Of a stretch of DNA of 64,000 nt, positions 5,079-27,718 are shown piece by piece. Origin of the DNA: Epilithonimonas hungarica (GTDB lineage Bacteria > Bacteroidota > Bacteroidia > Flavobacteriales > Weeksellaceae); assembly GCF_900102265.1 (NCBI RefSeq), contig NZ_FNBH01000002.1:620001-684000 (forward strand). Reading direction: 5' to 3'. The notes below the pieces were generated by a model. It worked only from the letters and a program-made list of their open reading frames with translations, was not told the origin of the DNA and made no database searches. How positions within the stretch are numbered: the stretch's first letter is position 1; the number at the start of each line of letters is the position of its first letter. Made by a program: the position numbers and the translations under genes.

Positions 5079-5801
5079 TTGTTGATTGTCGTTCTGATAA
5101 TCATCATATCCTTTATATTATTAGCGTACCGAAGTTTTATTCAGCGCATTATCAAAGAAAAGGACATCCAGTTTCAGGCAGAGCTAAATCATCAGCAGGA
5201 ACTGACGATGGAACATATCAAAGGGCAGGAAGATGAAAGAAAACGAATTGCCATATCTGTACATGATGACATTGGTAATCGTCTCAATATTCTCTCACTT
5301 TGGCTCAACAATCTCGATGCAGAAAACCAGGAAGCTTCCAAAAAGGTCATTACTAATCAGATCACCGAGCTTATAGATTCTACCCGAAATATATCGCATT
5401 CTCTTTATCCTGTAAATTTGGAGACGCTGGGTCTGGTTTTATATTTACAAGAACTGGTTACTAATCTTTCCCATAAAATAAATCTCATACTGCAGATCGA
5501 TCCTGCCTATCAGAAAAAAGATATATTTACAGAAGTCCAGATCTACAGAGTGATTCAGGAATTCACGACCAATGTAATGAAACACTCGAATGCTAATGAA
5601 GTAGTCGTTTACATTAGAAATCATCAGAAATATCTGACTATGATACTTTCTGATAACGGACAAGGTTTCGATTACGAAAAAGCAGGCAAAGGAATGGGAA
5701 TCAAAAACATCGAATCCAGAATCAGTTCCGTGAAAGGCTTTTACAAATGGAAAAACAAAATCGGGATAGGAAGCCGATTGATCATTAATATTCCTAATTA
5801 A
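5079..5801 (+). CDS. Sensor histidine kinase (HisKA_3/NarX-like), no sensor domain
   Basis: About 240 residues. One N-terminal transmembrane helix (LIVVLIIIISFILLAY), a coiled linker, then the dimerisation/phosphoacceptor segment ERKRIAISVHDDIGNRLN with His62, and a HATPase_c domain with N box VIQEFTTNVMKHSNA and G box DNGQGFDYEKAGKGMGIKNI. It belongs to the kinases that pair with LuxR/NarL regulators, and such a gene follows after two bases. There is no extracellular sensing domain. The start is uncertain: TTG at 5079 is used here, but the frame is open back to an ATA at 5052 that overlaps the upstream TAA stop and would add nine residues. Confidence 0.88.
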   Translation: MLIVVLIIIISFILLAYRSFIQRIIKEKDIQFQAELNHQQELTMEHIKGQEDERKRIAISVHDDIGNRLNILSLWLNNLDAENQEASKKVITNQITELIDSTRNISHSLYPVNLETLGLVLYLQELVTNLSHKINLILQIDPAYQKKDIFTEVQIYRVIQEFTTNVMKHSNANEVVVYIRNHQKYLTMILSDNGQGFDYEKAGKGMGIKNIESRISSVKGFYKWKNKIGIGSRLIINIPN

Positions 5802-5803
5802 TT

Positions 5804-6484
5804 ATGAGTGAAAAAATTAAAATTGTTTTGGTGGATGATGAACAGCTCATTCTGGAAGGAATCAAAATGCTGCTTGCTGCACAAACAAATATCTCTGTAG
5901 ATTTTGCCGCCACTTCTGGTAAAGAGATTTTGGAACATTTGGAGACAATAGGCGCCACTGATTTTCCGGATATCGCCATGATCGATGTACAGATGCAACC
6001 TATGGATGGATTCGAACTCGTAGAAATCCTGAAAAAAAACTATCCTAACCTAAAGATCATTATCCTTTCTTCGCATTACAAGAGCAGTGTTCTTGGTTAT
6101 ATGATCAAACTGGGCGTTTCTGCTTTTCTTCCAAAAAACTCTGATAAAAAGACTTTTATAGAAGCCATAGAAGCAGTTGACCAGAACGGAATGTATTTTA
6201 CAAAAGAAGATCATGAAATGCTTCTATCTTATATGAATACCCCTTCCCGAAAAAAATCATTATTTGAAAACGAAGAAACGCTTACCAACCGAGAAATAGA
6301 TGTTGTAAAACTGATCTGCCAGGAAAAGACCAATCAGGAGATCGCTGATATATTGTTCCTAAGTCCCAGAACTGTGGAAAGCCACCGCCAACGGATCCTT
6401 GACAAGATTGGCGCCAAAAACACGGTAGGGATTGTTATCTATGCCGTTATTAATAACATCCATTCTGTTTCAATTAAACTATAG
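5804..6484 (+). CDS. LuxR/NarL-family response regulator
   Basis: 226 residues. N-terminal receiver domain with the acidic pocket VLVDDEQ (Asp11, Asp12), phosphoacceptor Asp61 in IAMIDVQMQPMDG and the conserved lysine in FLPKNSDKK. The C-terminal LuxR-type helix-turn-helix, about residues 160-215, reads LTNREIDVVKLICQEKTNQE and RTVESHRQRILDKI. It is expected to be phosphorylated by the kinase encoded just upstream (two bases between the genes) and to bind DNA as a dimer. Target genes are unknown; the orphan gene at 6585 lies 100 bases downstream. Confidence 0.93.
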   Translation: MSEKIKIVLVDDEQLILEGIKMLLAAQTNISVDFAATSGKEILEHLETIGATDFPDIAMIDVQMQPMDGFELVEILKKNYPNLKIIILSSHYKSSVLGYMIKLGVSAFLPKNSDKKTFIEAIEAVDQNGMYFTKEDHEMLLSYMNTPSRKKSLFENEETLTNREIDVVKLICQEKTNQEIADILFLSPRTVESHRQRILDKIGAKNTVGIVIYAVINNIHSVSIKL

Positions 6485-6584
6485 TTCCTAAAAATTCAGT
6501 ATTTTTACTCTAATACAGGATTATTTTTTATTATTTCTTTGAAGTATGAAAATGTAAAAAAACAATTATCTAATTTTTTACAAT

Positions 6585-6920
6585 ATGTCTTCCCCAATAG
6601 AAATAATAAACTCTACCAATTATATCATCTCAGGCGAGATCTCTTATATGACTGTCTTTTGTTCCAGTCATTATTTTTTTGTGAAACCAAATACTAATTG
6701 GGAATCAGAAAAACGGGGAATCTGTCCTATCGTTCAGGTTTCAGCGATGATCAGAACGCCGAGAGGCGTTTTTACGGCAAAGCCATTTGTTTCTATTGGA
6801 ACGGCTTACAGCTCATTTGAAGTAATACAAACAAGAGAAAATGTTTTTTGTGTCACAAGATCCAGAAATAAAACCAATAAAAAATCGGTAATATTAGAAT
6901 CTAGCGATCATTTTTTTTAA
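6585..6920 (+). CDS. Small hypothetical protein (orphan)
   Basis: 111 residues, not recognised. The composition is protein-like, alternating polar and hydrophobic as in a beta-rich fold (NSTNYIISGEISYMTVFCSS, YFFVKPNTNWESEKRG, ICPIVQVSAMIRTPRGV). Three cysteines, no signal peptide, no membrane helix. It stands alone between the response-regulator gene and a strong terminator at 6954-6991, which supports it as a real transcribed gene. It could be a target or accessory of the upstream two-component system. The chance-ORF alternative cannot be excluded without homologues. Confidence 0.6.
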   Translation: MSSPIEIINSTNYIISGEISYMTVFCSSHYFFVKPNTNWESEKRGICPIVQVSAMIRTPRGVFTAKPFVSIGTAYSSFEVIQTRENVFCVTRSRNKTNKKSVILESSDHFF

Positions 6921-6953
6921 AGCAAAAATAAGACAGACCTGCTTCATATTTTT

Positions 6954-6991
6954 AAAGCTTCATCAAAAATGTATTGATGAAGCTTTTTTAT
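6954..6991 (+). terminator. Strong Rho-independent terminator
   Basis: Perfect 12-bp stem AAAGCTTCATCA (6954-6965) / TGATGAAGCTTT (6975-6986), nine-base loop, then a T-run. It ends the orphan gene at 6585 and possibly the two-component operon. Confidence 0.85.
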
Positions 6992-7071
6992 TGATTCAAA
7001 AACATTTCCGTATAAATACTTAATCATAAAATTGGTAATTTCTGCTCTGTTTCCACACGTGTGTATTATAA

Positions 7072-7079
7072 TATCTTTG
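7072..7079 (+). promoter_or_regulatory. -7 promoter element of a candidate non-coding RNA
   Basis: TATCTTTG matches the Bacteroidota -7 consensus TAnnTTTG. About 18 bases upstream is TTTC (7050-7053), a weak -33 match. No gene starts downstream; instead there is a run of hairpins ending in a terminator. Confidence 0.5.
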
Positions 7080-7085
7080 TACAAG

Positions 7086-7266
7086 AAGATACAGACACAA
7101 ATTCATATATAATAGTTAGCAATTTCTGCTCTCATCGGCAGAACGCTCCAAGATTAGAAACTAATAATGATGAGAATGTTTCAGAAAATTAAGTTATGAG
7201 TCGGATCAGCAACTTAATCCCTTAAATGGAGAAAATCCCTTTCAGATTTGAAAGGGATTTTATTTG
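7086..7266 (+). ncRNA. Candidate structured small RNA
   Basis: About 180 bases between a TAnnTTTG box and a perfect terminator, with no open reading frame of note. Successive hairpins can be read: TTCTGC/GCAGAA (from 7124), ATTAG/CTAAT (from 7153), ATTAAGTT/AACTTAAT (about 7188-7217) and the terminator AAAATCCCTTTCA (7232-7244) / TGAAAGGGATTTT (7249-7261). The motif AATTTCTGCTCT occurs in it (7121-7132) and again upstream of its promoter (about 7036-7047). The transcript is predicted only. A 6S-type RNA was considered but no single long rod with a central bubble was seen. Confidence 0.45.
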
Positions 7267-7310
7267 TTGTAAAATTTTCAATAAAAAAATATTATTTTCG
7301 CTTCCATAAA

Positions 7311-7412
7311 ACAATAAAAGAAGTCAATATTTCTAACTTGCCAAAAGGAAATTACCTTGTGAAAATCAAAACGGACAAAGAGAATATCACTCAGAAAATC
7401 ATCAAAGAATAA
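7311..7412 (+). pseudogene. Remnant of a T9SS cargo gene (C-terminal sorting domain only)
   Basis: An open frame of about 33 codons ends at TAA 7410-7412 and encodes EVNISNLPKGNYLVKIK followed by TDKENITQKIIKE. This is the last strand pair of the type A C-terminal sorting signal of type IX secretion cargo (pattern NLPKGxYxVKI...KIIK). No start codon or upstream domain is present in frame, so this is the tail of a lost gene. It is followed four bases later by an intact terminator at 7417-7443, as expected for a real gene end. Confidence 0.7.
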
Positions 7413-7416
7413 AACG

Positions 7417-7446
7417 AAAGCCTTTCAGAATTTGAAAGGCTTTTTG
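7417..7446. terminator. Bidirectional hairpin terminator
   Basis: Stem AAAGCCTTTCA (7417-7427) / TGAAAGGCTTT (7433-7443) with a five-base loop and T-rich sequence after it on the plus strand. It lies 8-37 bases past the stop of the minus-strand enoyl-CoA hydratase gene, so it probably also ends the paa operon. Confidence 0.75.
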
Positions 7447-7453
7447 TTGGCAA

Positions 7454-8209
7454 TTATTTATTTTTAAAACTATTAATGGCATTCACTGTAAACTCCGACA
7501 GAACCAATTGTCCGCTGACCGCCGCACGCTCAGTTAAGAGATGGTCCCAGTGCTCTGTTCCTTTCCAAAGAATGTTTTTCAGTTCGAACATTGCTTCTGG
7601 GTTTGAAGCTGCTAGTTTCTCTGCAAGAATTTGGATTTCAGCATCCATTTCTTCCGTCGTTTCGTACATATCCTGGAACATATTTTTTTCTCTTGCCCAT
7701 TCAGCAGAGTAAAATTCAGTTGCGTTGATGGCTAATTGAGCAAAAGCGGAAGTTCCGATTTTCTTTTCTACAACCGGACTGATAACAAAAGGTCCAATCC
7801 CGACCGCCAATTCACTTAGTTTGACAGAAGCATTTTCCGTAGCAAAAGTATAATCAGCAGCACAGGCAATTCCAACTCCTCCTCCCACAGCTTTTCCATG
7901 AATTCTTGCGATGATGAGTTTCGGAGATTTTCGCATAGCGTTGATGACGTTGGCAAAACCTGAGAAAAATGTTTTTCCCGTTTCGAAATCTTTGATTGAA
8001 ATCAATTCGTCAAAAGAAGCACCTCCACAAAAGGCTTTTTCGCCAGCACTTTTTAATATGATGACTTTTGCATCGTCATTTTTTCCAAGGTTATTGATTT
8101 CTTCTACCAGATTTTTAAGTTGAGAACTCGGCATCGAGTTGCTTTGCGGATGAAAAAACTCGATGGTTCCGATTCCGTTTTCTATGGTTGATTTTACGTA
8201 TGCTTCCAT
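7454..8209 (-). CDS. Enoyl-CoA hydratase/isomerase family protein of the paa cluster
   Basis: 251 residues with crotonase fold. The first oxyanion-hole segment is AFCGGASFDEL and the second is HGKAVGGGVGIACAADYTFA. In classical hydratases the second reads GGGxE; here the catalytic Glu is replaced by Gly, while the second acid is kept in KLSELAVGIGP. The C-terminal segment GIGPFVISPVVEKKIG resembles methylglutaconyl-CoA hydratases or isomerases. In this operon it could serve a PaaF- or PaaG-like step on ring-opened acyl-CoAs, but the assignment between hydratase and isomerase is open. It is the last gene of the minus-strand paa cluster, 80 bases after paaZ. Confidence 0.88.
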   Translation of the reverse strand: MEAYVKSTIENGIGTIEFFHPQSNSMPSSQLKNLVEEINNLGKNDDAKVIILKSAGEKAFCGGASFDELISIKDFETGKTFFSGFANVINAMRKSPKLIIARIHGKAVGGGVGIACAADYTFATENASVKLSELAVGIGPFVISPVVEKKIGTSAFAQLAINATEFYSAEWAREKNMFQDMYETTEEMDAEIQILAEKLAASNPEAMFELKNILWKGTEHWDHLLTERAAVSGQLVLSEFTVNAINSFKNK

Positions 8210-27617: not shown

Positions 27618-27718
27618 GAAGCCGGGAACCTGCTGTCCACTATATCTTTTGCAAAAACCCAACAACTCATTCCGAGGCTGTTTTTTGCAAAAGGATGCCG
27701 TTCCCATCAGGGCTATGG
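27618..27718. repeat. Arm A/arm B stem element, copy 3
   Basis: Read on the minus strand: arm A AGCCCTGATGGGAACGGCA, a long stem (TTTTGCAAAAA.. pairing with ..GTTTTTTGCAAAA) and arm B GATATAGTGGACAGCAGG ending CCCGGCTT. It aligns with module iii of the paa composite repeats and with 34193-34275. Its outer stem is AGCC/GGCT. It fills most of the spacer between the barrel gene and guaB. Confidence 0.75.

Follow-up and report, generated by a model that had tools for sequence, protein, structure and literature searches.

SroC is reportedly a sponge RNA derived from a 3′ end, with its element against small RNAs (sRNAs) lying within or after a protein-coding operon. More generally, sRNAs and sponges derived from 3′ ends are an established class, and OppZ and CarZ of Vibrio are 3′ UTR-derived autoregulatory sRNAs that pair with their own transcripts, as described in the cited portions of PMC7398697. 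The published circuit closest to the one considered here, as far as the cited portion of PMC12559287 describes it, is that of CrfA, a Caulobacter sponge of four sibling sRNAs, SisA–D. Small-RNA regulation in Bacteroidota is thinly studied. Bacteroides has no obvious homologues of Hfq and ProQ according to the cited portion of PMC7366714, and in Flavobacterium psychrophilum the predicted partners of the sRNA Rfp18 are metalloprotease mRNAs, contacted through its third stem-loop (PMC9723704, portion cited).

Here we analyse a locus in Epilithonimonas hungarica at which an RNA of about 180 nt lies beside the genes of a histidine kinase (HK) and a response regulator (RR); the window denotes the whole 64,000-nt stretch of DNA in which it was studied. 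On balance, and from sequence evidence, we favour reading this non-coding RNA as a sponge, or anti-sRNA, under the control of the RR, possibly born by an operon losing its genes. Genomes and loci are named, where needed, by our own labels (G and L numbers).

A predicted RNA gene beside a two-component system

An earlier note on this DNA had proposed a stand-alone transcription unit with a TAnnTTTG box, three hairpins and a 13-bp terminator beside a gene remnant. These elements were all recovered (Table 1), the three hairpins being hairpin 1, the stem-loop 3′ of the box and the terminator itself. The strand from 7082 to 7270 folds at −43 kcal/mol (z −3.08), a value equalled by none of 200 shuffles and to which the terminator contributes; terminator-like sites number three in 6480–7500 against a shuffle mean of 0.4. 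TAnnTTTG is the −7 consensus as quoted in the cited portion of PMC7366714, and the RNA has, by sequence, both a promoter of its own and an intrinsic terminator. A search for sigma-70-type promoters returned five at the locus against a shuffle mean of 5.0 and was set aside.

The proposed gene remnant also held up: it aligns with the C-terminal end of longer genes found at the same place in four loci (L125, L126, L130 and L142). We take the protein to have been secreted, with a type 9 sorting-like end. Downstream of the RNA lies a convergent enoyl-CoA hydratase gene. On the other side, the 111-aa protein is present in 14 of the 23 genus genomes (E ≤ 1e-10). Neither the link between regulator and operator nor the complementarity to a distant sRNA family, both described below, was visible to the reader who wrote the earlier note.

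Table 1. Features of the locus, in window coordinates
Feature	Position	Strand	Basis
Histidine kinase gene (probable sensor)	5079..5801	+	Pfam HATPase_c 1.6e-6; HisKA_3 0.00076, under its cut-off
NarL/LuxR-type response regulator gene	5804..6484	+	Pfam Response_reg 1.3e-20, GerE 5.5e-18
Gene of small conserved 111-aa protein, linked to the HK–RR pair	6585..6920	+	no Pfam family
Terminator-like site downstream of the HK, RR and 111-aa genes	6954..6986	+	terminator search
Conserved 39-nt operator, probable RR binding site (predicted)	7010..7048	+	≤1 mismatch in 118/296 Weeksellaceae genomes; reversed-pattern control 0
−7 box TATCTTTG (TAnnTTTG)	7072..7079	+	sequence
Non-coding RNA	7084..7266	+	boundaries inferred from the −7 box and the terminator
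Hairpin 1, TTCTGC..GCAGAA	7124..7143	+	stretch common only to G015 among aligned relatives
Box complementary to sRNA core (proposed sponge site), AAACUAAUAAUGAUGAGAAUG	7158..7178	+	
Stem-loop 3′ of the box, AATTAAGTT..AACTTAAT	7187..7218	+	fold prediction
Rho-independent terminator, 13 pairs, 4-nt loop	7232..7261	+	terminator search
Remnant of C-terminal end of secreted-protein gene (..VNISNLPKGNYLVKIKTDKENITQKIIKE)	7293..7412	+	longer homologues in relatives

The operator and its probable regulator

The motif AATTTCTGCTCT, which the earlier note had seen once before the promoter and once inside the transcript, has exactly two occurrences in the window, which begin at 7037 and 7121, and is absent from the other strand. 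The repeat is not target-like: the upstream copy forms the right arm of a conserved operator, a 39-nt element of fixed layout, and the copy within the RNA is lineage-specific, being altered in G015, the nearest relative, and missing from G017.

An orthologue of the RR (E ≤ 1e-70) is present in 153 of 296 Weeksellaceae genomes. The operator, at one mismatch or fewer, is found in 118 of these 153 and in none of the 143 RR-negative genomes, so that all 118 carriers are RR-positive; both are restricted to two genera, and the genomes are therefore not independent tests. In the window's genome the operator occurs once when up to three mismatches to its 40-nt pattern are allowed, and a looser pattern gives five matches, the other four having three mismatches, against ten for the control.

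The same operator stands ahead of genes in Chryseobacterium. Among 30 operator loci there, 22 have a collar-type gene behind the operator, six a gene encoding the motif SVGxFFDGTGNNG and two another gene. In the six, the operator sits immediately after the RR gene, and collar loci are sometimes distant from the RR, by 1.8 Mb in G181 for example. This occurrence ahead of Chryseobacterium loci, even far from the RR gene, together with the co-occurrence of the two across genomes, indicates that the operator is most probably the binding site of the RR, which would make the RR the probable activator of the RNA promoter. We also note the order RR gene, operator, SVGxFFDGTGNNG protein gene in L071, L077, L085, L088, L091, L093 and L135. 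Separately, Rfam places a DUF805b RNA in the leader of two Chryseobacterium collar operons, directly behind the operator, among five loci scanned (L149, 3805–3840, minus strand; L161, 168–204, plus strand).

Both proteins of the pair are under purifying selection. Against G015, dN/dS is 0.085 for the HK and 0.10 for the RR, with medians of 0.06 (55 usable pairs, 13 genomes) and 0.05 (62 usable pairs, 15 genomes), respectively. This constraint persists even though no PF07484 collar protein was found in the window's genome at E ≤ 1e-5.

Conservation of the unit across Epilithonimonas

The unit was located in relatives by synteny, by reading the DNA that adjoins the hydratase or the 111-aa protein. 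In 13 of the 16 genus genomes that bear the RR, operator, −7 box, ORF-less RNA and terminator follow one another in series (G000, G015, G017, G007, G005, G018, G012, G014, G020, G009, G010, G003 and G021), which supports a stand-alone small-RNA unit at 7084–7266 of the kind that had been proposed. In G010, and ahead of the RNA in G017, the operator is degenerate beyond one mismatch, and a DNA similarity search recovers two relatives well (G015, 98%; G017, 79% over part of the length). In the remaining three genomes the operator stands ahead of a protein gene, of collar type in G016 and G022 and of another secreted type in G008, and box and terminator were read downstream of the protein gene in G008 and G016. 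Seven genus genomes have neither the operator nor an RR orthologue (best identity 36% or less); six of them carry different DNA next to the hydratase, and the seventh, G019, had no hydratase match.

In an alignment of the relatives' RNAs, the conserved part comprises a short box, (AACTAAT)AAYGATGARAACT, a stem-loop and the terminator, in this order. The GATGA of the box is invariant in the eight aligned relatives, which also have a stem at the position of 7187–7218, the window itself being absent from that alignment. Coding potential is not conserved. Read by eye, 14 of 15 boxes, all but that of G016, contain an ATG in a start-like context that opens a short frame of about 4 to 14 codons, and these frames vary in sequence and length across relatives.

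Support from covariation is thin. Over the eight relatives, pairing holds in 93.6% of cells and two-sided changes affect 6 of 20 pairs, neither figure being reached in 500 shuffles, but the support is weaker than these figures suggest because G017, with a badly aligned first stem, supplies five of the six changes (the other is from G008), because the tested structure was itself derived from the same eight sequences, and because seven RNAs were left out (those of the window, G015, G007, G005, G009, G010 and G016). The aligned rows are, moreover, kin and not independent. In the terminator, 4 of 11 pairs change on both sides, all four in G017. Of the conservation that the earlier note had asked of relatives, retention of the unit is found by synteny and compensatory changes exist, but such changes are few. 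A covariance model built from the eight relatives with the window excluded (R1) nevertheless ranks the window RNA above all other matches in its genome (E 2e-7), the model including G017, a relative of the window RNA. Terminator-like matches below about 45 bits form its background in every genome, and syntenic matches alone were used.

A multi-copy sRNA family complementary to the box

When the reverse complement of the box was sought across the genus, each genome had 2 to 8 sites, against 0 to 2 for controls, and AGTTTTCATGGTTATTAGT was found in all 23 genomes. Of 25 such sites inspected, 23, which come from 19 genomes, proved to be short genes with CGATTCTCATGTTTAATTTGAGTTTTCATGGTTATTAGTTTTTA or a variant of it, then a hairpin whose loop is often CUUCGG, then a T run; the remaining two, in G016 and G022, coincide with the start region of a coding gene. 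The sRNA copies are about 70 nt long, with a core that contains two YUCAUG repeats and is conserved as GAGUUUUCAUGGUUAUUAGU, and with a terminator at the end, from which we infer the transcribed strand. Three copies lie in the window's genome (L189, L212 and L218), on contigs 3 and 5, which are not the contig that holds the RNA.

The exact 25-nt core is present in at least 118 stretches of named genomes, and the 80 matches listed come from Chryseobacterium, Epilithonimonas, Kaistella, Bergeyella and one unclassified member of the Weeksellaceae. Among sites in named genomes with enough flanking sequence (L238–L317), all 81 are followed by a run of five or more Ts. By eye, the upstream sequences are of several types: TTGGCAC-N4-TTGTT, which we take to resemble sigma-54 promoters; TAnnTTTG; and, for a few, tRNA-like sequence, with Rfam identifying a tRNA just ahead of the site in L198. 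Rfam returned nothing at gathering score for the sRNA sites in the 11 loci tested and, searched by E-value in three loci, sub-threshold matches alone. Sites resembling CATCATTATTAAT, considered as sRNA variants that would match the central change, were rejected, as those read were without the sRNA layout.

Stripped of its terminator, the window RNA is predicted to pair with the 44-nt sRNA core at −32.0 kcal/mol; dinucleotide shuffles average −18.6 kcal/mol, and none of 1,000 reaches this value. When both strands of the window were tiled (5,108 overlapping tiles; mean −16.2, s.d. 3.0), the RNA came first and the next locus reached −26.7. The comparison extends to 15 RNAs, comprising the 13 stand-alone RNAs and the 3′ regions of G008 and G016, that of G022 having been left out: at most 5 of 1,000 shuffles are as good in 14 of them, and 45 of 1,000 in G003. 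Core positions 23–29 and 31–33 are paired in all 15 RNAs and position 30 in one, the latter constituting a recurrent single mismatch in the centre of a predicted duplex of about 20 nt.

If the RNAs' own folds are charged against the pairing, the gain stands out in 9 of 15, with no more than 3 of 200 shuffled sRNA cores as good (3 for the window); it is intermediate in G017 (6 of 200), weak in G014, G012, G010 and G018 (11, 16, 23 and 31 of 200) and absent in G003 (103 of 200). The complementarity is strong and kept across species, and the accessibility of the site is less certain. In the stretch shared only with G015, CTCATC (7131–7136) is complementary to the GATGAG of the box (7169–7174), and the RNA may thereby mask its own box; this pairing is used in the fold of the G015 RNA. 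A second pairing site, in the stem-loop, was dropped, being clear in G021 alone (1 of 500 shuffles), weak in the window and in G015 (23 and 22 of 500) and without support in most.

Boxes behind Chryseobacterium operons

To compare the sister genus, we read 45 Chryseobacterium operator loci of our own choosing, in which the operator precedes collar- or secreted-protein operons. By our own rule, 44 have at least one ORF behind the operator. The exception is L180 (G197), where an ORF-less RNA with both box types follows the operator, possibly a second stand-alone case. The box is found in 13 of the 45, behind genes in 12 and in the gene-less RNA of L180; ten were assigned by pattern or placement (L180 and L134 by hand) and three diverged boxes were added by eye. 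Ten of the 13 pair with the sRNA core at −26.6 to −33.2 kcal/mol and the three diverged ones at about −21.5 kcal/mol, compared with −12.8 to −21.1 kcal/mol for the 32 box-less loci. The complement of the core is matched without interruption over 22 nt in L137 and 21 nt in L178. An ATG is missing from four of the 13 boxes, and hence the box is not simply a start codon.

A profile of the Chryseobacterium boxes places the RNAs of three relatives first, weakly (E 0.03–0.06), with G008 at 4.1, and does not recover the window's own box. Stems predicted to enclose the boxes are suggestive: in 12 tested with 40 mononucleotide shuffles each, 3 stand at ≤0.03, 7 at ≤0.10 and 5 above. A second conserved 3′ element, AAGATTCTAATNCATRAATGA, lies just 5′ of the terminator in 32 of the 45 loci (within L132–L182) and pairs with the end of the coding sequence in some folds. 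The outgroup pattern suggests that an operon with a 3′ box came before the RNA alone.

Discussion

The circuit that we propose would run as follows. Activity of the HK and RR would lead the RR to act on the operator and switch on the RNA promoter. The box of the RNA, AAACUAAUAAUGAUGAGAAUG, is predicted to form a duplex of about 20 nt with the sRNA core GAGUUUUCAUGGUUAUUAGU, interrupted by a single central mismatch; on the strength of this long complementarity, the RNA probably soaks up those sRNAs when the sensor fires. Their capture would release the mRNAs that they target, in which a start region similar to AACUAAUAACCAUGARAACU would be expected. The RNA gene itself may have arisen through the loss of coding genes from an RR-controlled operon whose 3′ region carried a box.

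A less probable but still serious alternative is that the unit is a relict, an operator, promoter, start region and terminator left after a gene deletion, with the box as a functionless fossil of a start or 3′ end. The gene remnant behind the RNA would fit such a history, as would the operator ahead of a protein gene in G016, G022 and G008, the box and terminator behind the gene in G008 and G016, and the ATGs and short frames seen by eye in 14 of 15 boxes. A relict would not be expected, however, to persist in 13 of 16 genomes with conservation limited largely to box, stem and terminator; the HK and RR are still under purifying selection, the short frames are not conserved, and the complementarity of the box is kept in 14 of 15 RNAs. 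The same ATGs and their start-like context could instead mark a very small mRNA that the sRNA family represses, a target and not a sponge. We regard this as very improbable, given frames that differ in sequence and length between species and boxes without an ATG in G016 and in 4 of 13 Chryseobacterium loci.

It is rather unlikely that the RNA is a base-pairing sRNA with mRNA targets of its own, its likeness to an anti-sRNA arising because both use start-codon-like sequence. Conserved box, stem and terminator are a usual layout of an sRNA, and a fair site exists in the gene of the 111-aa protein (−14.9 kcal/mol in the window, −14.4 kcal/mol in G005). Against this, a scan of the HK–RR region of 13 genomes with the box as seed gave no consistent partner site, and the 19-nt pattern with up to two mismatches has four matches in the window's genome, namely the three sRNA copies and the RNA itself, with no further site within one further mismatch of the sRNA core. 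Real targets of the sRNAs in this genome must pair over shorter stretches. Candidate targets whose start regions match the box are L204/L205 (MRTHFILISFF..), L233, with three tandem sites, and L237. Finally, length and hairpins alone would suit 6S RNA, for which the earlier note had advised a check, or another catalogued structured RNA. The Rfam search of the RNA locus gave nothing at gathering score, and its 25 hits up to E 10 are sub-threshold and include no 6S RNA; on this basis these families were rejected, and we give them almost no weight.

Returning to the RR-controlled sponge that we favour, a bolder extension, which we offer tentatively as possible and not as probable, is that in Epilithonimonas a complete two-component system was redirected, leaving the sponge as its only recognisable operator-type target. 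Operon genes would have been lost and the leader fused to a 3′ anti-sRNA element, and the sensor would now titrate multi-copy, start-codon-masking sRNAs of the Weeksellaceae that have no Rfam match at the loci tested. Either way, the locus offers a defined circuit of sensor, regulator, operator, proposed sponge, sRNA family and candidate target starts. Species that carry operator, genes and box, set against those that carry the RNA alone, provide a direct test of the birth of a sponge by gene loss.

Comparison with known systems

Among the literature matches listed, titles and abstract openings do not name the RNA, the operator or the sRNA family, and searching with two pieces of the sequences found no paper in the literature covered. 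SroC-like 3′ sponges resemble the layout proposed for the Chryseobacterium loci; the Epilithonimonas element differs from SroC in being a stand-alone gene, under the same operator, from which the coding genes are gone. Flavo-1 (RF01705) is a flavobacterial small RNA that lies in the same window, at 27622–27718 on the minus strand (60.2 bits), and Rfam gives no match of this family to the RNA locus or to the sRNA sites in 11 loci. Rfp18, compared here by description and not by sequence, is a conserved flavobacterial sRNA with tested effects on mRNA levels, according to the cited portion of PMC9723704. With OppZ and CarZ, as the cited portion of PMC7398697 presents them, the locus shares the 3′ UTR as a source of regulatory RNA, but its RNA is predicted to pair with an sRNA family whose genes lie elsewhere. 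The likeness is closest to CrfA, in which, as in the RNA proposed here, one non-coding RNA inactivates a family of several sibling sRNAs (PMC12559287, portion cited). Unlike CrfA, the present RNA belongs to another phylum, is predicted from sequence, would be controlled by an adjacent two-component system and has box-like counterparts in the 3′ regions of operons in a sister genus.
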